Below are positions 3,130 through 59,833 of a stretch of DNA of 64,000 bases, in pieces (the first letter of the stretch is position 1; each line of letters starts with the position of its first letter). This DNA comes from Aliidiomarina sanyensis (GTDB lineage: Bacteria; Pseudomonadota; Gammaproteobacteria; Enterobacterales; Alteromonadaceae). Under the pieces are notes generated by a model, which was given only the letters and a program-made list of their open reading frames with translations, was not told the origin of the DNA and searched no databases. The DNA lies in NCBI RefSeq assembly GCF_003987175.1, contig NZ_PIPM01000004.1, positions 1 through 64,000 of the forward strand. Direction: 5' to 3'. A program made the position numbers and the translations under genes.

Positions 3130-3930
3130 ATGAAGAAAGTGATTATCCCGCTAGTGGGCGCCGCTGTGCTCGCCACCTCGCTTTGGTTGACGCTTGGGCA
3201 ACACACAGGCGCGGAAGCAACCACAGATGCTGACTACGAGCTGGTAAGCAAGATCCGCGAGAACAATCCGCGATTTGCCAACGCGTCGATCGTCGTCCAC
3301 CGCAACCTTGCTGAGTTTGGCTTCGCTAATCTGTATGAAATCAACTTAGGCGGGCAAAATATGGTGGTGACCGAGGATGGCCGCTACGCATTTGTCGGTG
3401 ATTTCTTTGATCTGTCCGACATTACCAATTTAAGCGCGGAGCATCGCACCGAGCGTATGGCGCAAGTAGCAGAGCAAGAGCTGCCAAATGTTACCGACGA
3501 AATGCGCATTACCTTTTCTGTCAATGACGGGGTTCAAGAAATTGGCAGCATCTATGTATTTACCGATCCAACCTGCACGTATTGCCGTCGCCTCCACCAA
3601 GAGCTCGATGAATACGCTGCCGCCGGTGTAACTGTGCATTACCTTCCGTATCCCCGCAGTGGCCTGCAACGGGGCCGTGATTTTACGCAGCTCTCTGCGA
3701 TTTATTGTGCGGATGATCGCCATACCGCCATGGATGATTTCAAATTCGATCAGGCGGGCGATAAATATGCAGGCGTCGGCACGACGGCCGAATGCCATGA
3801 GATTATTGAGCGAGGCTATCGGCTCGGTCAGCGCGTTGGCGTGACCGGAACCCCATTCATTGTGCTATCGAGTGGTGGCGTGATCCCCGGATACAACCCG
3901 GCGCGTCAAATCATTCAGCGCATGCAATAA
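3130..3930 (+). CDS. DsbC/DsbG-type periplasmic thiol:disulfide isomerase
   Basis: This protein probably isomerises wrongly paired disulfides in periplasmic proteins. It has an N-terminal hydrophobic signal (residues 1-30). An N-terminal DsbC-like dimerisation domain covers about 35-110. The thioredoxin-fold domain carries the active site CTYC (149-152) and the cis-proline loop GVTGTP (Pro242). Two more cysteines (193 and 222) sit where DsbC has its structural disulfide. At 266 residues it is slightly longer than E. coli DsbC (236 with signal). It stands alone between two terminators, so it is monocistronic. DsbC is more likely than DsbG because of length and sequence, but I leave the symbol open. 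Its electron donor DsbD is not in the window. Confidence 0.85.
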   Translation: MKKVIIPLVGAAVLATSLWLTLGQHTGAEATTDADYELVSKIRENNPRFANASIVVHRNLAEFGFANLYEINLGGQNMVVTEDGRYAFVGDFFDLSDITNLSAEHRTERMAQVAEQELPNVTDEMRITFSVNDGVQEIGSIYVFTDPTCTYCRRLHQELDEYAAAGVTVHYLPYPRSGLQRGRDFTQLSAIYCADDRHTAMDDFKFDQAGDKYAGVGTTAECHEIIERGYRLGQRVGVTGTPFIVLSSGGVIPGYNPARQIIQRMQ

Positions 3931-4096: not shown

Positions 4097-5668
4097 ATGA
4101 GCCAGATCCGCCCTGTTCGACGCGCGCTTTTGAGCGTTTCTGATAAAACCGGCATTGTAGATTTCGCCCAAGCACTGCACGCCCGTGGCGTCGAAATCCT
4201 GTCGACCGGTGGCACCGCCAAGCTCCTTGAGCAAGAAGGTATTCCAGTGATCGAAGTGTCCGCGCATACCGGACAACCGGAGATCATGGACGGCCGCGTG
4301 AAGACTCTGCATCCGAAAATCCACGGCGGTATTTTAGCGCGGCGCGATCAAGATCAAGCCACCATGGATGAGCACGGCATTGTGCCGATCGATCTGGTTG
4401 CCGTGAATTTGTACCCGTTTGCAGAAACCGTTAAAAAGCCTGGCTGTAGCTTGCAAGATGCCATCGAAAACATCGATATCGGTGGGCCAACCATGGTTCG
4501 TGCTGCTGCCAAAAATCATGCAGATGTTACCATTATCGTCAATGCGCACGATTACGATCGCGTCCTCGGTGAGCTCGCGCAATTCGATGGCGTGACCGAT
4601 GCCACTCGCTTTGATCTGGCCATTCGCGCATTTGAGCATACGGCTGCGTATGATGGGATGATTGCGAACTACTTTGGTCAGCGCATTGAAAGCCACGAGC
4701 AACCCGAGCCGTTCCCACGAACTCTTAATTTCCAGCTGCATAAAAAACAAGATCTCCGGTACGGTGAGAATGCACACCAGCGTGCGGCATTTTATGTGGA
4801 CCCAAGCCATCACGAAGCCTCGGTTGCCAGCTCAACGCAGCTGCAAGGAAAAGAGCTTTCCTTTAATAATATCGCGGATACCGATGCTGCTTTGGAGTGT
4901 GTAAAGTCCTTCACGCAGCCCGCCTGTGTCATCGTGAAACACGCAAATCCTTGTGGGGTCGCTGTCGATAAGACCCTGCTCGCGGCCTATGACCGCGCAT
5001 TTAAAACCGACCCAACATCGGCATTTGGCGGCATCATTGCCTTTAACCGACCGCTCGATGAAGCGACCGCTCATGCCATCATTGATCGGCAGTTCGTGGA
5101 GGTGATCATTGCACCGGGGGTGACCAAAAAGGCCCAAACGATCATCGCAGCGAAAAAGAATGTTCGCTTGCTGGTTACCCACGATTTTTCAGCCCGCGTT
5201 GCTCAATTAGATTTCAAGCGAGTGCAAGGGGGGCTGCTGGTGCAGGATATTGACCATGGCTCCGTGCCGGATAACGACCTGAAGGTCGTTACAAAAGCAC
5301 AGCCGACCGAAGCTCAACTGGCCGACCTGCGCTTTGCATGGACCGTCGCAAAATACGTGAAATCAAACGCGATTGTTTACGCGAAAGATGGCATGACGAT
5401 TGGTGTTGGCGCCGGTCAGATGAGCCGAGTTTATAGTGCCAAAATCGCTGGCATCAAAGCCGCCGATGAAGGACTTGAAGTCATTGGTTCGGTGATGGCT
5501 TCCGATGCATTTTTCCCATTCCGGGATGGCATCGACGCCGCGGCAGCCGCAGGCATCAAAGCGATTATTCAGCCAGGTGGGTCGATTCGTGATGAAGAAA
5601 TCATTGCAGCGGCCGATGAGCATGGTATTGCCATGGTCTTTACCGGCATGCGCCATTTCCGTCACTAA
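4097..5668 (+). CDS. purH: Bifunctional AICAR formyltransferase / IMP cyclohydrolase
   Basis: PurH catalyses the last two steps of de novo purine synthesis: formylation of AICAR from 10-formyl-THF, then ring closure to IMP. The 523-residue protein has the usual length. The N-terminal IMP cyclohydrolase domain (about 1-195, with [10 protein letters not shown] and [10 protein letters not shown]) is followed by the formyltransferase domain containing [10 protein letters not shown], whose Lys and His are catalytic, and [13 protein letters not shown]. purH and purD usually sit side by side in gammaproteobacteria. Here an unrelated methyltransferase-like gene lies between them. An IMP-producing pathway through both genes is still expected. 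Confidence 0.97.
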
Positions 5669-53675: not shown

Positions 53676-55010
53676 TCACTCCACCGCACGCAACCGCAGA
53701 GCGAGAGTCCCTGCAACCACTCCCACGACGGTGAGGAGTGTCAGCACAGCATGGGTGCCAAGCCATTGATCGAGAATTCCGAGTAACATACCGAGAAGGA
53801 GCAATGCACCAATCACTGTATTGCTGACCGCTGTGAGTTGTGCGCGATTTTCTTGAGTTGCCATATCAACCAAGTAGGTTTTTCGTCCAATCCGCGCCCC
53901 TTGATGCGCCACTGCGGCCAAGAAAATCAGCGCCCCCCCGACCCCAATCAATCCAAGCAATGCATCCTCGATCATCGCGATGATTAGCGTAATGGCCATG
54001 ACTCCAGACGCCATAAACGCGGCTGCGGCCATCACGTGATGGCTCGCCGTATCAGACCAACGCCCCCAAAACCGCCCGGCCAACATGCCCGCGGCGCCAC
54101 TCGCCAGCATCAAGCTCCCCAGTCCGGTGAAGGCCCCATCGCTCTGCTGTTGAATCAAGACCACGATATAGGGAATCGAGAACGCCGAGGAAACCAACAA
54201 GGCCCGCACACCGACAAAAAAGCCAAAATCCCGATCCGTCCACAACAATCGCATCGACTTCACAGCTTCCGTAATAGCATTACCTCCTCCGGAAGTGGCG
54301 CCCGGAACTTCTGGAACAGCAGCAAAGGTCCAAGCCGCCGCAAGCCAAAGTAAGGCTGCGCCGCCGAGAAGGAATACGAACATTCCCGTTGTTCCATCGA
54401 CTTGCGGTGCGAAAATAATCAGAAGCGCCGTTGCTAGCGTCATAAATCCTGCAGAAGTGGCTGCCAGGCCGGTCAGCCGCCCGCGGCGAGACTTGGAGAT
54501 GGTTTTTCCTGTGACGTCTTTCAACGCCACGGAACAAATACCCCGCGAAAGACTAAATACAATCAGCCACACGATGACCCACCACCCAAATGTGAGTGGC
54601 GTGAACCATCCCTCGTCGTGGATAAAGAACAATCCACTCACCATCGCCAATAAGGCGAGAGCTTGGCCTATTGAGCCCCAAACCCAAAACCACTTCCGAA
54701 CAGGTCGCTCGCGCATGCGTTGTGCGATAAAAAGCTGCGGCAAGAGTGAGAGCGACTCGCGCAAAGGAACCAGAAGACTAATAAAAAAGGCTGGTGCCCC
54801 GGTTGCTGAGAGCATCCACGGCAATACCAGTCGAGCGCTGACGAGGGAGTCACCTAACTTGGTGAGCGTCAGTGCCCATAAATGCAGTAAAAAAGCTTTC
54901 GGTTGTTCGTTGCAGGCTTCATCGGGAATATCCTTACAAACCCGCGCGTCTTCATCTTCAGCGAGATACTGATAGAGTTTCTCGGGAAGTTCTTGCGTGT
55001 GCTTGGGCAT
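53676..55010 (-). CDS. MFS transporter at the end of the thiamine operon
   Basis: A major facilitator superfamily permease, 444 residues, with about 12 predicted transmembrane helices after a 40-residue polar N-terminal extension (cysteines at [11 protein letters not shown]). Family-typical segments include the helix 1 region [15 protein letters not shown] and a loop [14 protein letters not shown] like the MFS inter-helix motif. The start overlaps the end of the phosphotransferase gene by 53 bases, with the strong site GGAGGGAGAGG directly upstream, so translation is probably coupled. The position suggests a link with thiamine or its precursors (import or export). The substrate is not known. 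Confidence 0.8.
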
Positions 55011-55821
55011 CCTCTCCCTCCTCCGCTTGTTTCAACGCTTCATGTTCAGCGATTGCCTCTTGCAGATGAAACCAAATACGGTTCACGAGGGCAACCAGTC
55101 GCAACCAATCCCGCACGCTTTCACGGTCAATAGAGCGACCGCTATGCTCTTGATAACTAGCCAGCAATTCACTGATTTCGTCATCATACAAATCATTGAC
55201 GACAATGGTCGACGCCAAGTCAAAACCAGGATGTCCATAGCCTGCATATTCCCAATCAATCACTCGGGGCTCGTTTCCCAGAAAAACATGCTCGGCATTT
55301 AGATCATGATGGCAAAACACGTGCGGTTCTTCGTCCCAGCGACGAAAGAGATCTGCGTAGCTATCGCAATCACTTTGCGCCTCGCGACCGCGACGTGGAT
55401 GGAGCTTGGTTAGCGCATCACAATAGTGTTGTACACGGGCACGCAAAGACCAGCGCGGCCCTGAAGGCTCAGCTTGATGTATGGTAGCCAGTGTTTGGCC
55501 CAGAAGTTGGGCACGTCGATGGGGATCAAATTCATCGGCAATGGTCGCTGCATTCATCCACTCAAAGACACAGATACCATCCGCTACACTTGACCAAACA
55601 ACCTGAGGCGCGAGACTGAGCGTTGCCAACTCACGATCCAAGCGGACAGTTTCTCCCGGCGCACGACCGAACATTTCATCGTGGCCGTACCGCTTTACAA
55701 AGTAGGTCTGGGCACCGTTATCAATGCACCATGTTGCGTTCGCAAGATCACGCCCCACAGACGTTGTTTTCCACGTGCCATGCTCGGGTAAATGAGCTAA
55801 GCATCCAGTGGGGAATTGCAT
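54958..55821 (-). CDS. Thiamine kinase-like phosphotransferase
   Basis: It has the aminoglycoside phosphotransferase / choline-thiamine kinase fold. Lys43 (YFVKRYG) fits the ATP lysine, HHDLNAEH (171-178) is the catalytic loop with Asp173 and VIDWEYAGYGHPGFDLA (about 187-203) carries the metal Asp189. The loop differs from the family's HxDxxxxN: His178 replaces the metal-binding Asn. I start at ATG 55821, eight bases after AAGAGG; a GTG at 55827 is too close to the site. It lies 12 bases after pnuC. In the thiamine operon it is the natural candidate to phosphorylate imported thiamine and trap it. Activity with the changed residue needs testing. Confidence 0.8.
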   Translation of the reverse strand: MQFPTGCLAHLPEHGTWKTTSVGRDLANATWCIDNGAQTYFVKRYGHDEMFGRAPGETVRLDRELATLSLAPQVVWSSVADGICVFEWMNAATIADEFDPHRRAQLLGQTLATIHQAEPSGPRWSLRARVQHYCDALTKLHPRRGREAQSDCDSYADLFRRWDEEPHVFCHHDLNAEHVFLGNEPRVIDWEYAGYGHPGFDLASTIVVNDLYDDEISELLASYQEHSGRSIDRESVRDWLRLVALVNRIWFHLQEAIAEHEALKQAEEGEDAQAHARTSRETLSVSR

Positions 55822-55833
55822 ACACACAACCTC

Positions 55834-56469
55834 TTAACGTGCGGGCGAAACCCTCATCCCTGCAGAATCGACGCGCTTGCGTTGGTTCTGACGGTAATCC
55901 TGCCGCCAACGAATATATCCGACTGTGGACATGATGACATAAATTGCGAAAAGAATCGCGGTTGCTTGGAAACCTTGCAGAGTAAACAACCAGACATACA
56001 AGCTGTTAATGACGATCCAATACAACCAGTTCTCCAATACTTTACGCGCAACGAGGTACGTTGTGAACAAGCTAAATAAAGTAGTGACCGTATCTAATTC
56101 TGGGAAAACGGCATCGGTTCGCAACCGCAAATAAATTGAAATAAAAATGCTGGTCACGAGGAGCAGAAAAACCCACACCACATGGAAGCCTAATGGACGT
56201 GTCGTGATAGGAATGGGTTGATGTTTATTCCCAAATCGCCAGACCCAGAATCCGTAAAAAGCAATCGCAACATAATAGGCTTGCAGCCATGCTTCCATGT
56301 ATAGATTGCCTTGAAAGAACAGCCACGAGAACAGACTGGCGCTGCAAACCGCCGCCGGCCAACACCATAAACTTTGTCGAATGGCCAAAACGATGTAGGC
56401 GATCGCAAATGCGACCGCCGTTAGCTCGAGCCCTGAAGACAACTCAAGGAGGTTGATCAGCCTATCCAT
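55834..56469 (-). CDS. pnuT: PnuC-family thiamine transporter (PnuT type)
   Basis: PnuC-family permeases import vitamins by facilitated diffusion, with trapping by a kinase; PnuT members carry thiamine. The protein has seven to eight hydrophobic segments (first at about 12-32, TAVAFAIAYIVLAIRQSLW). The conserved aromatic motifs are AFYGFWVWRF and LENWLYWIVINSLYVWLF. I start at ATG 56469, with GGAG upstream, giving 211 residues; the codon overlaps the end of the YkoF-like gene by eight bases. Thiamine as the substrate is inferred from the TPP riboswitch and neighbours. Confidence 0.85.
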   Translation of the reverse strand: MDRLINLLELSSGLELTAVAFAIAYIVLAIRQSLWCWPAAVCSASLFSWLFFQGNLYMEAWLQAYYVAIAFYGFWVWRFGNKHQPIPITTRPLGFHVVWVFLLLVTSIFISIYLRLRTDAVFPELDTVTTLFSLFTTYLVARKVLENWLYWIVINSLYVWLFTLQGFQATAILFAIYVIMSTVGYIRWRQDYRQNQRKRVDSAGMRVSPAR

Positions 56470-56746
56470 GCTGCTCCACACCTTTGGCCCGCAGATCCTC
56501 AGGGGTCAGGTCTCGATTAATAAACTTACAGACCAAAACCTGAGGTGGAACCTGTTGATATACGCGCTCTAACTCAATGGTTAATGCCTCCATGACCGAC
56601 CGATAAGCACCAAACACTTGCGTGCTCATGGTATTGGTCTGTACCTGCAATCCCTCGTAAGTGGCCAGACGATCCACAAAGTCTTGGATCACGGTCCGAT
56701 ACTCATCGGCTAGCGGATACAAACTAATTTCTGCAGAAAATTTCAT
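56462..56746 (-). CDS. Single-domain YkoF-like thiamine-binding protein
   Basis: The 94-residue protein looks like one half of the YkoF/MTH1187-type ferredoxin-like domain (thiamine-binding protein superfamily): MKFSAEISLYPLADEY at the N-terminus, then YEGLQVQTNTMSTQVFG with the conserved small-residue turn, and the QVLVCKFINRD strand. B. subtilis YkoF has two such domains and binds thiamine or HMP. No signal is present, so it is cytoplasmic. It lies between the TonB receptor (9 bases away) and pnuT (overlapping by eight). The function is unproven; it could buffer imported thiamine or deliver it. Confidence 0.72.
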   Translation of the reverse strand: MKFSAEISLYPLADEYRTVIQDFVDRLATYEGLQVQTNTMSTQVFGAYRSVMEALTIELERVYQQVPPQVLVCKFINRDLTPEDLRAKGVEQHG

Positions 56747-56755
56747 GACAACTCC

Positions 56756-58885
56756 CTAGAAGCGATAGCGTGCCGTGAAACCAACGCGACGAGGCTCGCC
56801 CCACTGAACATAAGTCCGCGGTGCATACTCAATGCGCGGGTCGTTGCCAAAGAAGAATCCGCGCGTGGTGTAATCACGGTCAAACAGATTGCGGGCCCAA
56901 AGACTGAACTCCCAGTCTTGCCACGTGTAGTTCAAATGACCATGCACCAGCGCGTAGCTCGACGACTGCTGATTATGCGTGTTTGAGTAATAGAAACCGG
57001 TCCGTCCATCCATTTCCAAGCGAAGGGTCAGGCCTTCTGCGATCCGATATTCACCACCCAAATGCGCTTGATGACGTGGTGCATGGGCTTGACGACGTCC
57101 GCGCAAATTCGTGCCATCACGTAAGAGTAGATCATTAAACTCGGTTTCAAGGTAGCCGTATGATGCAAACAACCGAAGGTCGTCACGTGGCACATAATCA
57201 ATGCTCGCTTCAATACCTTGGTTCGTCCCATCCGACGCATTATCCATGTAAGTTACGAAGACACCGTTGCGCTCAACGTATGCGTTGACCTGCATGTCGT
57301 CACGCCAACTGTAAAATGCATTCACTTGCAGACTTAAGCTGTGCTCCGGCAAAAACGCTTTATAACCGACCTCGACACTCGTCAGATATTCAGGCGCAAA
57401 AGTAGCTTGAGCTTCCAAAAATTCGCGGTGGTCTTCAAGGTTCCGATCTTCCACTCGACCGAGCGCCTCACCGTTCACGCCACCCGCCTTAAACCCGCGT
57501 GTCGCAGTAGCGTAGAGCTGTTGCATTGGGGCAAGCGCATACTCCAAGCTGACGCGTCCGCCCCAGGCAGAGTCTGATGGTTCAGCGACAATTCCGCGGC
57601 TATCCGCATAGTCGTTATCATACCGCTCCCAGCGCACACCGTAAGTGAGGCGAAGACGTTCGCTCAACATTTGCTGTAGCTCAGCGTACACGGCAGTGCG
57701 GTCGGTATCGTATCGGCTGCTGAATGGCGTATTCAAAAATGTGTATTCACGGTCCAAATCCTGCCGACGCTGCTGATAATAGATGCCGTAGAGCCACTCA
57801 GTCTCAAGGCCAAGGAACTGTACCGGCTCGTCCGAAAGAACGCGAGTTTCGAGCTCCATCTGTTCACGATCCCGAAAATAGGCATCGAAGCTATTGTATT
57901 CCCAGCCTGGCGCAATCCCTTCGAATGCCCAATCCTCGTCGTAGCTATATTCTGACTCTGCCCACAGGCCGCTTGCCATCACTTCCACAACGTAGCCCGG
58001 GTTACCGGTGTAGATTGCACCAATACGGCCTGCATGGCTATCAAGGGTGTCTCGTCCCGGCGTATCCGACAAGGTTTGACGATTGCCATCCAATGACCAC
58101 GCGTCATACCCATTATCAATATCAAATCGGTGATAGGTAAAATTCAGGGTCAGATCATCCGTGGCCAACCAAGTGGCATTCAGACGCAGGGTCAGCTCAT
58201 CTTGATTCTGGGTATCTTTTCGATTTAAAAAGATATTCTCTTGAAAGCCATCACTGACATAAGAGTAGAGTGAACCGCGCACCGCAAACCGGTCATTGAG
58301 TGCGTTACCAAATGCAACACCGGCAGCATATGTATTGTAGTTCGCCCATAAGGCTTCCACGTGGCCACTTGGCGCAAACTCGAGGGGTTCCGAGCCAAGA
58401 TAAATCACCCCGGCCATCGCATCTGCACCGTAGCGAGTGCTTTGCGGACCGCGAAATACTTCGACTTGGCCGATATCAAACAGGGTCCCGGCACTGCCGA
58501 TTCCGCTGTAGTTGATTCCATCAATAATTAAACCAACCGAGGGGTTAATTGGATCGACAAACTGGCTACGCTCGCCGATGCCGCGAATCTGGAAAAAGCT
58601 CGCCCGACTCGCACCCGAAGCTAAGTTCACGTTGGGAGCCATAATCAGGGCCGACTCGAGATGCTCTGCTTGACGAGCGCGGATATCATCGCCCTGAATG
58701 ACGGAGACACTGCCCGCTACATCTTCAACACCGCGTGCACGAAAATCACCTACCACGACAATCCGCTCAATCGGGGATTGTGTCGTTGTTTCGGCAGAGG
58801 ACGCGTCGTCGCCCAGAGCGACAAATGAGAAAGAGGATAGTGCGAGTGCGCTGAGAACTGCGCGAGATACTTTTGATTTGTTCAT
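56756..58885 (-). CDS. TonB-dependent outer-membrane receptor, TPP-regulated
   Basis: A 709-residue receptor for active uptake across the outer membrane. It has a signal peptide ending near residue 25, a TonB-box-like IERIVVVGDF, a plug domain (about 45-160, with the conserved DALSG-like segment ALIMAPNVNLASG and VEVFRGPQSTRYGADAMAGVI) and a 22-strand barrel to the terminal RYRF. The preceding TPP riboswitch says the ligand is thiamine or a thiamine precursor; such receptors are predicted from riboswitch data in several gammaproteobacteria. It is the first gene of the operon, followed by the YkoF-like gene after nine bases. Confidence 0.92.
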   Translation of the reverse strand: MNKSKVSRAVLSALALSSFSFVALGDDASSAETTTQSPIERIVVVGDFRARGVEDVAGSVSVIQGDDIRARQAEHLESALIMAPNVNLASGASRASFFQIRGIGERSQFVDPINPSVGLIIDGINYSGIGSAGTLFDIGQVEVFRGPQSTRYGADAMAGVIYLGSEPLEFAPSGHVEALWANYNTYAAGVAFGNALNDRFAVRGSLYSYVSDGFQENIFLNRKDTQNQDELTLRLNATWLATDDLTLNFTYHRFDIDNGYDAWSLDGNRQTLSDTPGRDTLDSHAGRIGAIYTGNPGYVVEVMASGLWAESEYSYDEDWAFEGIAPGWEYNSFDAYFRDREQMELETRVLSDEPVQFLGLETEWLYGIYYQQRRQDLDREYTFLNTPFSSRYDTDRTAVYAELQQMLSERLRLTYGVRWERYDNDYADSRGIVAEPSDSAWGGRVSLEYALAPMQQLYATATRGFKAGGVNGEALGRVEDRNLEDHREFLEAQATFAPEYLTSVEVGYKAFLPEHSLSLQVNAFYSWRDDMQVNAYVERNGVFVTYMDNASDGTNQGIEASIDYVPRDDLRLFASYGYLETEFNDLLLRDGTNLRGRRQAHAPRHQAHLGGEYRIAEGLTLRLEMDGRTGFYYSNTHNQQSSSYALVHGHLNYTWQDWEFSLWARNLFDRDYTTRGFFFGNDPRIEYAPRTYVQWGEPRRVGFTARYRF

Positions 58886-58888
58886 GGT

Positions 58889-58927
58889 GGATCTCTTCTT
58901 TTAAAAACGGATAAAAAGTCGAGATCC
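58889..58927 (-). promoter_or_regulatory. Riboswitch expression platform: sequestering hairpin
   Basis: In the minus transcript GGATCTC (58927-58921) pairs perfectly with GAGATCC (58895-58889) just before the ATG at 58885. The purine-rich stretch AAGAAGAGA (58900-58892) that would serve as ribosome-binding site is partly inside the hairpin. The left arm shares bases with the segment TAACCGGATC (58932-58923), which can instead pair with the aptamer. This makes it a translational switch. There is no terminator in the platform. Confidence 0.75.
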
Positions 58928-58956
58928 GGTTAGCCGCTGAATTGGTCCGTTCTGTA

Positions 58957-59057
58957 TTACCAATCCCTACGCCAGTATTAACCGGATCAGGTGCAAAGAG
59001 TTTGAAGTTGGTAAAGACCAACTTACATCTCAGCCCTTGCGGGCACCCCTTTGGTAA
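58957..59057 (-). promoter_or_regulatory. TPP (THI-element) riboswitch aptamer
   Basis: On the minus strand the 101-nt element has the conserved TPP aptamer sequence blocks: GGGGTGCCCGCAAGGGCTGAGAT at the 5' side and ACCTGATCCGGTTAATACTGGCG then TAGGGA at the 3' side. The closing stem P1 is TTACCAA (59057-59051) with TTGGTAA (58963-58957). The variable arm AAGTTGGTCTTTACCAACTT (59033-59014 approximately) forms a perfect extra hairpin. When TPP is bound the downstream genes should be switched off. Confidence 0.95.
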
Positions 59058-59107
59058 TGATGCGACGCGCCTTTGGCTCGCCGACGGTGCGAAGTATACG
59101 CGTTTCG

Positions 59108-59833
59108 CTAGATAAAACTCAAGGCATCGCCAAATAATTGGTCTTTCGGTAAGCCCAGTGCGGTGAATTGATCGCGGGCTACGCGCACCATGTCAAAGCG
59201 CCCAGCAATGTAGACATCATAAGCCTTCATTCCCTCGGCAGCGGCACTGGTAGTTGCACTCAGATCGTCAATGACGACATCCAGTACTTTCCCACGCGGA
59301 TCCGCCCAATTCTCGTCCTGCGGACGTTCCACAACCGGTACATAGGTCAAGTTGGCAAAGCGTTTCGCCATCTCAACCAAGGCTTCATGGTAATAGAGAT
59401 CCGCCTCTTCCCGAACCCCCCAATAAAGCAACACGGGTTGAGTTTCGGTGCGCGCAAGATGCGCTTGAAGAATTGACCACGCATAGGAAAAACCGGTCCC
59501 CCCAGCGATCAGCAACAAAGGGCGTGAACGTGTGGGCTCATAGCCTGCATTCCCATGCGGAAGACTAACCGAAATAGCGCGCTCGCGTTGGATCCGCTCC
59601 AACACTTCCCATGCATACGGATTATCTGGACTTGCTCCAATATGCAGCGTCACCTCTTTGCCGTGCGCTGGAATGGAGGCGATGGAAAAGGGTCGTTGAT
59701 CACCCTCGCCCATATTGACCATCAGATATTGTCCCGGGATGTAGTCGACGGCTTCCTCGAGCACTAACTCAACAATATGGACAAACGAATTAACCGCTTC
59801 GCAGCGGCGTACTGTTGCAACACCTTGATACAT
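59108..59833 (-). CDS. fre: NAD(P)H-flavin reductase
   Basis: Fre reduces free flavins with NAD(P)H and belongs to the ferredoxin-NADP reductase superfamily. The flavin motif RPFSIAS, the NAD-binding LLLIAGGTGFSYAWSIL (about 102-118) and a C-terminal DVYIAGRFDMV are present. I start at ATG 59833, two bases after ubiD's stop and with GGA six bases before it; the frame is open to 59863. Length 241. UbiD needs prenylated FMN, and E. coli has the same ubiD-fre order, so it may supply reduced flavin for that pathway. Confidence 0.92.
   Translation of the reverse strand: MYQGVATVRRCEAVNSFVHIVELVLEEAVDYIPGQYLMVNMGEGDQRPFSIASIPAHGKEVTLHIGASPDNPYAWEVLERIQRERAISVSLPHGNAGYEPTRSRPLLLIAGGTGFSYAWSILQAHLARTETQPVLLYWGVREEADLYYHEALVEMAKRFANLTYVPVVERPQDENWADPRGKVLDVVIDDLSATTSAAAEGMKAYDVYIAGRFDMVRVARDQFTALGLPKDQLFGDALSFI

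Follow-up and report, generated by a model that had tools for sequence, protein, structure and literature searches.

Translational OFF riboswitches are usually described as having a sequestor and an antisequestor pairing that exclude one another (PMC2258182). The thiamine pyrophosphate (TPP) riboswitch of Escherichia coli thiC uses an alternative pairing that blocks both P1 and the stem sequestering the ribosome-binding site (RBS), as reported with an alignment of 77 proteobacterial leaders, and it commits during transcription (PMC5234074). For E. coli tbpA (thiB), the Shine-Dalgarno (SD) sequence is described as sequestered with TPP and exposed by an anti-P1 stem without TPP (PMC11487190), and control at translation has been published for E. 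coli thiM (PMC11487190, PMC3280964). TPP riboswitches before omr-type receptors have been reported (PMC2211319), and in Bacteroides the genes OMthi, pnuT and tnr3 are described as riboswitch-linked (PMC5613172). Here we analyse the leader of a TonB-dependent receptor gene in a stretch of 64,000 nucleotides (nt) from Aliidiomarina sanyensis (contig NZ_PIPM01000004.1, positions 1 to 64,000; hereafter the window). The leader occupies 58885-59060 on the minus strand, and the receptor has 709 amino acids (aa). No published study of this leader was found by title, including in the Aliidiomarina and Idiomarina thiamin riboswitch literature.

We propose that the leader acts as a TPP riboswitch, an OFF switch through which abundant TPP shuts down translation of a thiamine-uptake operon, and we place the probability of this reading at about 0.88. 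The analysis establishes the sequences, the membership in the Rfam family, the competition between folds, and the conservation and covariation among relatives. TPP binding, the timing of the switch during transcription, translation as the controlled step and thiamine as the substrate of the receptor are predictions. A sequence-only reading of the window had proposed such a TPP-dependent translational switch. The folds, the comparative data and the fit to published E. coli TPP riboswitches support it, with TPP binding and control of translation as its predicted parts.

The receptor leader holds a TPP aptamer and two exclusive pairings

Judged by its sequence, the RNA element is a full-length TPP riboswitch. 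The complete RF00059 model of Rfam (positions 1-105 of 105) matches 59060-58947 on the minus strand with 71.3 bits and an E value of 4.9e-12, which exceeds the curated gathering score of 54.3 bits and bears out the aptamer named by the sequence-only reading. The aptamer lies 61 nt upstream of the receptor gene and is the single TPP match in the host genome (2.59 Mb). We also notice that P3, at 59005-59024 on the minus strand, carries an extension of 8 base pairs (bp), AAGTTGGT with ACCAACTT, beyond the consensus, which the Rfam alignment treats as an insertion. The segments of the aptamer and of the expression platform are as follows.

58947-59060, minus strand: TPP riboswitch aptamer (THI element), full RF00059 model
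59051-59058, minus strand: P1 5' strand ATTACCAA, paired with 58963-58956 in the aptamer fold
58956-58963, minus strand: P1 3' strand TTGGTAAT, from the Rfam match and the aptamer fold
58979-58988, minus strand: aptamer arm GATCCGGTTA (P4/P5/L5), the switching segment, from sequence and folds
58939-58946, minus strand: anti-P1 segment ACCAATTC, pairing with 58966-58959 in the ON hairpin of the minimum-energy fold
58923-58932, minus strand: complement of the arm, TAACCGGATC, anti-aptamer strand of the ON hairpin, from sequence, folds, shuffles and relatives
58921-58927, minus strand: sequestor 5' strand GGATCTC, from sequence, fold, consensus fold of 35 leaders and covariation
58914-58918, minus strand: inner sequestor helix 5' strand CTTTT, from the fold
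58898-58902, minus strand: inner sequestor helix 3' strand AAAAG, with which the purine-rich ribosome-binding region begins, from the fold
58889-58895, minus strand: sequestor 3' strand GAGATCC, adjoining the start codon, from sequence, fold and covariation

The start codon ATG of the receptor gene is at 58885-58883 on the minus strand. Both pairings of the sequence-only reading, namely the 10-nt complement between GATCCGGTTA and TAACCGGATC and the match of GGATCTC to GAGATCC near the start codon, are present on the minus strand at the positions it gave. The arm complement and the sequestor 5' strand overlap by 5 nt (58927-58923), and because these bases are common to both, the two pairings are mutually exclusive, as had been stated. 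In the aptamer fold the arm contributes to P4 and P5; in the ON fold it belongs to a 10-bp helix. Three helices are additional to that reading: anti-P1 (58966-58959 with 58946-58939), a short helix of 58971-58969 with 58937-58935, and the inner sequestor helix (58918-58914 with 58902-58898). In the modelled fold, the 10-nt pair makes up just one half of the ON hairpin, the other half being the anti-P1 helix.

Competing folds of the leader

In the unconstrained fold of 59065-58856, the 10-nt helix encloses the short helix and the anti-P1 helix. Together they make one long hairpin (58988-58923) that undoes P1, P4 and P5, and the 10-nt pair is the longest helix of the minimum-energy fold. In the unconstrained RNA, the 10-nt helix has base-pair probabilities of 0.55-0.62 and the sequestor of 0.41-0.45. 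When the states were forced, the ON state (10-nt pair, aptamer invaded) reached -57.9 kcal/mol and the OFF state (P1 and P5) -54.2 kcal/mol, a model gap of 3.7 kcal/mol that excludes the energy of the ligand. With P1 and P5 forced, the pairings of GGATCTC with GAGATCC and of CTTTT with AAAAG arise unforced.

A series of truncated transcripts revealed the order in which the helices compete. The probability of P1 is 0.99 at the 3' end 58950 and 0.04 at 58935, once anti-P1 has been transcribed. With 3' ends at 58923-58905, the 10-nt pair reaches 1.00 and P5 0.00, and P5 drops from 0.99 to 0.00 only upon transcription of the 10-nt complement. The sequestor stands at 0.93 at 58889, 0.98 at 58885 and 0.97 at 58870, and at 58856 the 10-nt pair has 0.57 and the sequestor 0.44. 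The sequence-only reading would have fallen if the 10-nt pair had been the weaker structure in all states; the pair instead dominates at 58923-58905 and has about 0.57 in the transcript to 58856.

Both pairings were compared with chance. The duplex of the 12-nt arm with the 78 nt after the aptamer core was equalled by energy in 0 of 500 dinucleotide shuffles, and a helix of equal length, with G-U pairs allowed, appeared in 1.0% of them. For the sequestor of the window leader, 0.2% of 500 shuffles reached the same energy. A simple consensus scan of 58600-59300 on the minus strand found no terminator-like site, in agreement with the earlier statement that the leader has no terminator, and the intrinsic terminator of a transcription-attenuating TPP riboswitch is thus not found in that scan.

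On the basis of these folds, the switch would work as follows. The aptamer would fold first on the emerging RNA. Bound TPP would hold P1, P4 and P5, leaving TAACCGGATC and GGATCTC free to pair with GAGATCC, and this pairing would hide the ribosome-binding region and the bases adjoining the AUG. When TPP is absent, ACCAATTC (anti-P1) and TAACCGGATC (anti-P4/P5) would pull the 3' half of the aptamer into the hairpin 58988-58923. This hairpin would consume the sequestor 5' strand and keep the start site open.

Both pairings recur in related leaders

We examined 79 receptor loci, of which 45 have a TPP aptamer directly upstream (35 found by a simple regular expression and 10 by Infernal or a wider expression). 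The simple expression was dropped as a test of absence, as it had caught 35 of the 79 loci and missed 10 more. A family-wide search gave a TPP match in 193/196 genomes; loci from it were added to the receptor set, and a further 80 stretches were picked from its list. Stretches lacking an expression match were dropped (13/80 fetched stretches and 34/79 receptor loci). One locus (L096), with just 16 nt before the match, could not be judged, one (L009) was dropped since the expression matched off the aptamer, and one with an unclear start (L057) was excluded from the shuffle test and the RNAalifold set. The class of each leader, receptor or other, was set by expression or by visual inspection of its N-terminal translation. 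Removing duplicates on the first 70 nt reduced the receptor leaders from 89 to 77. The final set contains these 77 distinct receptor leaders and 54 other TPP leaders (thiC, thiD and others, mostly thiC, classed by eye). The nearest receptor relatives belong to Aliidiomarina, with 80 and 79% identity.

The sequestor is well supported by covariation with its partner in the anchored leaders. A helix of at least 7 pairs occurs in 62/69 anchored leaders, with variants such as GGATCTC with GAGATCC, GGATTGTTTCT with GGAAATAATCC, and GGGTCTCC with GGAGGCTC. The initial anchoring of 69 leaders chose the anchor favouring their own pairing. The test was repeated with the first anchor only, which drops 20/77 leaders. 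Here the own duplex energy of the remaining 57/77 is -789.0 kcal/mol, compared with -622.5 kcal/mol (standard deviation 17.5) for permuted partners, and 0/5000 permutations reached the own energy. When the set was reduced to a single leader for each distinct 8-mer (n=11), the permutations reached the observed value in 4/5000 cases by energy and 39/5000 by helix length. RNAalifold on 35 leaders (33 distinct) returned P4, P5 and the sequestor (58927-58921 with 58895-58889). It did not return the 10-nt pair, which is expected because it is a single-structure method.

The arm complement is far more often significant in receptor leaders than in other TPP leaders. Under 200 dinucleotide shuffles for each leader, it reaches p<=0.05 in 56/77 receptor leaders versus 0/54 others, and p<=0.01 in 40/77 versus 0/54. 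A complement to the whole 3' half of the aptamer reaches p<=0.05 in 40/77 versus 3/54. A set of homologues devoid of both segments, which would have counted against the sequence-only reading, was thus not what we found.

The covariation check that it had suggested for the 10-nt pair turned out uninformative to negative. The aptamer requires the 7-nt core GATCCGG, which for that reason is nearly invariant. At the four positions that vary, the leaders' own pairing was 38, 46, 17 and 8 of 57, compared with permuted means of 35.6, 46.0, 17.1 and 8.2; the first position is not significant, the second is uninformative, and the third and fourth are at chance. A looser permutation test of arm covariation was significant (630 against 591.8, 0/2000), but it used automatic start calls, several of which were wrong, and we do not claim covariation for this pair.

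Taken together, a hairpin covering the ribosome-binding region and the start, as in a translational OFF platform, appears in the fold, the consensus fold and the covariation. A mutually exclusive anti-sequestor built from aptamer bases is found in the shared bases 58927-58923, in the competing folds and in the 56/77 relatives.

Three groups of relatives differ in arrangement. Eight leaders, mostly from Rheinheimera (L059, L061, L070, L078, L080, L088, L101, L103), combine the arm GGATCAT with either GTGATCC or ATGATCC downstream, which may reflect a register change of the anti-aptamer pairing; six distinct leaders of this type missed shuffle significance (p 0.18 to 0.33). Five others (L034, L035, L036, L046, L073) contain extra stretches, partly self-complementary by eye, between the aptamer and an ACCAAT segment, and retain both the arm complement and the sequestor. 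In three Pseudoalteromonas receptor relatives (L063, L090, L099; receptor at 5001, plus strand), no aptamer is present in the receptor's own leader, and a TPP riboswitch lies about 1.2 kb off on the opposite strand (about 3500-3900, minus). This riboswitch precedes a gene read by eye as thiC, with an open reading frame (ORF) list covering L063 only. The match coordinates of five further genomes suggest the same arrangement.

Alternative explanations

Several observations weigh against the proposed switch. The ligand-free sequestor wins (0.97-0.98) in transcripts ending at 58885 or 58870, which means that an open start at equilibrium depends either on pairing with the first codons or on a kinetic trap. 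The problem would disappear if the RNA committed while still being transcribed, ahead of 58889, by analogy with the published E. coli thiC case. In addition, the arm complement falls short of p<=0.05 in 21/77 receptor leaders, covariation at the variable positions of the arm pair is not significant in the anchored test of 57 leaders, and the partner permutations leave the relatedness among leaders in. Shuffling of single leaders gave the sequestor p<=0.01 in only 14/35, and all three measures together in 5/35; this weak test was replaced by partner permutation.

If the ON state were an ordinary anti-P1 hairpin, the arm complement could be a by-product of a sequestor containing CCGGATC. Anti-P1 is, in the accounts cited, the switching helix of E. 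coli thiC and tbpA (PMC5234074, PMC11487190), it abolishes P1 by itself once the transcript reaches 58935, and the missing covariation of the 10-nt pair fits as well. We nevertheless consider this explanation unlikely. The sequestor requires just GGATCTC, and the preceding arm-matching bases (TAACC in this lineage) are dispensable to it. Moreover, the 10-nt pair is the longest in the minimum-energy fold, P5 is lost only after its transcription, and the arm complement is significant in 56/77 receptor leaders but in none of the 54 others. The idea that the long inverted match is a chance product or a remnant, with the switch using another pairing, finds some room in the 21/77 leaders that fall short. 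It is largely refuted by the 0/500 shuffles that reach the arm duplex of the window, by the recurrence of the arm complement in relatives and by the covarying sequestor, and we regard it as hardly credible.

The aptamer might mainly control transcription. TPP would then favour termination by Rho within the leader or shortly beyond it, and the sequestor would act only indirectly by excluding ribosomes. The absence of an intrinsic-terminator-like site in 58600-59300 on the minus strand and the position of the conserved, covarying element right on the start site, as expected if initiation is controlled directly, make this quite improbable as the main mode. The E. coli thiC and tbpA TPP riboswitches are nonetheless reported to cut mRNA as well as translation, thiC via Rho (PMC5234074, PMC11487190), and Rho-dependent termination may add to translational control here.

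The controlled operon and the thiamine supply of the host

The proposed translational OFF switch precedes genes related to thiamine, the kinase among them scoring below its NCBIfam cut-off.

56756-58885, minus strand: TonB-dependent receptor, 709 aa, first operon gene, predicted outer-membrane thiamine receptor (Pfam PF00593 and PF07715)
56462-56746, minus strand: YkoF-related protein, 94 aa (PF07615, 22.8 bits, cut-off 21)
55834-56481, minus strand: PnuC-family transporter, 215 aa, PnuT-like, predicted inner-membrane thiamine transporter (PF04973 and TIGR01528)
54958-55827, minus strand: APH-family kinase, 289 aa, thiamine-kinase-like (PF01636)
53676-55010, minus strand: MFS-family protein, 444 aa (PF07690), its ORF coordinates overlapping the kinase gene
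59093-59122, minus strand: promoter-like TTGAGT-18-TATACT, a weak candidate leader promoter (consensus scan only, 9/12 matches)

Thiamine as the substrate of the receptor follows from the riboswitch and the operon, and it is likewise the presumed substrate of the PnuC-family transporter. The best NCBIfam match of the kinase is ycfN_thiK with 83.7 bits, under the cut-off of 299, and the MFS-family protein may be part of the operon. The gene upstream of the leader encodes an NAD(P)H-flavin reductase; its frame stops at 59108, the promoter-like site is located where it ends, and UbiD precedes it.

In the host genome (99.5% complete, 47 contigs, so that a gap is possible), ThiC (TIGR00190) and ThiE (TIGR00693) gave no match at E<=0.001. 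ThiL (TIGR01379) is present with 330.9 bits. Among 17 genomes of the genus Aliidiomarina, ThiC occurs in 5, and 12, including the host, are without it. These matches point to the host as a predicted thiamine auxotroph and to a patchy loss of ThiC across the genus. The simplest reading is an auxotroph that imports thiamine, which the operon kinase phosphorylates and ThiL completes to TPP. With ThiL and no detectable ThiC or ThiE, the switch probably governs the thiamine supply of the host, setting its level of vitamin B1 uptake.

Comparison with known systems

What we expected least is that, within one family, receptor leaders contrast with the other TPP leaders. Tentatively, a single aptamer class would here carry two expression platforms sorted by gene: receptor leaders would hold an imperfect inverted copy of the 3' third of the aptamer (anti-P1 and anti-P4/P5) that invades the ligand pocket, and thiC/thiD leaders would not. 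The receptor platform may stem from an inverted duplication of the aptamer, or selection may have favoured a switch that takes apart the pocket and not P1 only, for tighter or faster commitment. This contrast offers a small, testable question on how expression platforms evolve over a fixed aptamer. The leader also adds, from outside the model enterobacteria, a translational TPP riboswitch that lends itself to clean comparison: both of its states can be read, and covariation backs its sequestor.

Among known systems, E. coli thiM resembles the receptor leader in that a downstream segment, CCAGGTCA, pairs with the aptamer-arm segment TGATCTGG over 8 pairs, 31 nt before the start codon, and the next segment, read by eye, is able to pair with the ribosome-binding site. 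Unlike the receptor leader, thiM governs thiM-thiD and not an uptake operon, its complement is shorter, and its anti-P1 and sequestor sequences differ. In E. coli thiC, the ON-state pairing is likewise described as excluding P1 and the RBS-sequestering stem (PMC5234074), whereas the arm complement in the thiC leader has at most 6 pairs; a regulatory pause and a Rho site were shown for thiC. E. coli tbpA is similar in controlling thiamine uptake and in an anti-P1 that exposes the SD (PMC11487190), but it heads an ABC transporter operon and its arm complement has at most 4 pairs. TPP riboswitches before omr-type TonB receptors (PMC2211319) and the riboswitch-linked OMthi, pnuT and tnr3 of Bacteroides (PMC5613172) share the placement of the switch; the Bacteroides genes belong to another lineage, and the kinase described there is Tnr3, in contrast to the APH-family kinase of the Aliidiomarina operon. 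An ON pairing that excludes both the aptamer and the sequestor is already known from E. coli thiC and tbpA, and the receptor leader is a further case.
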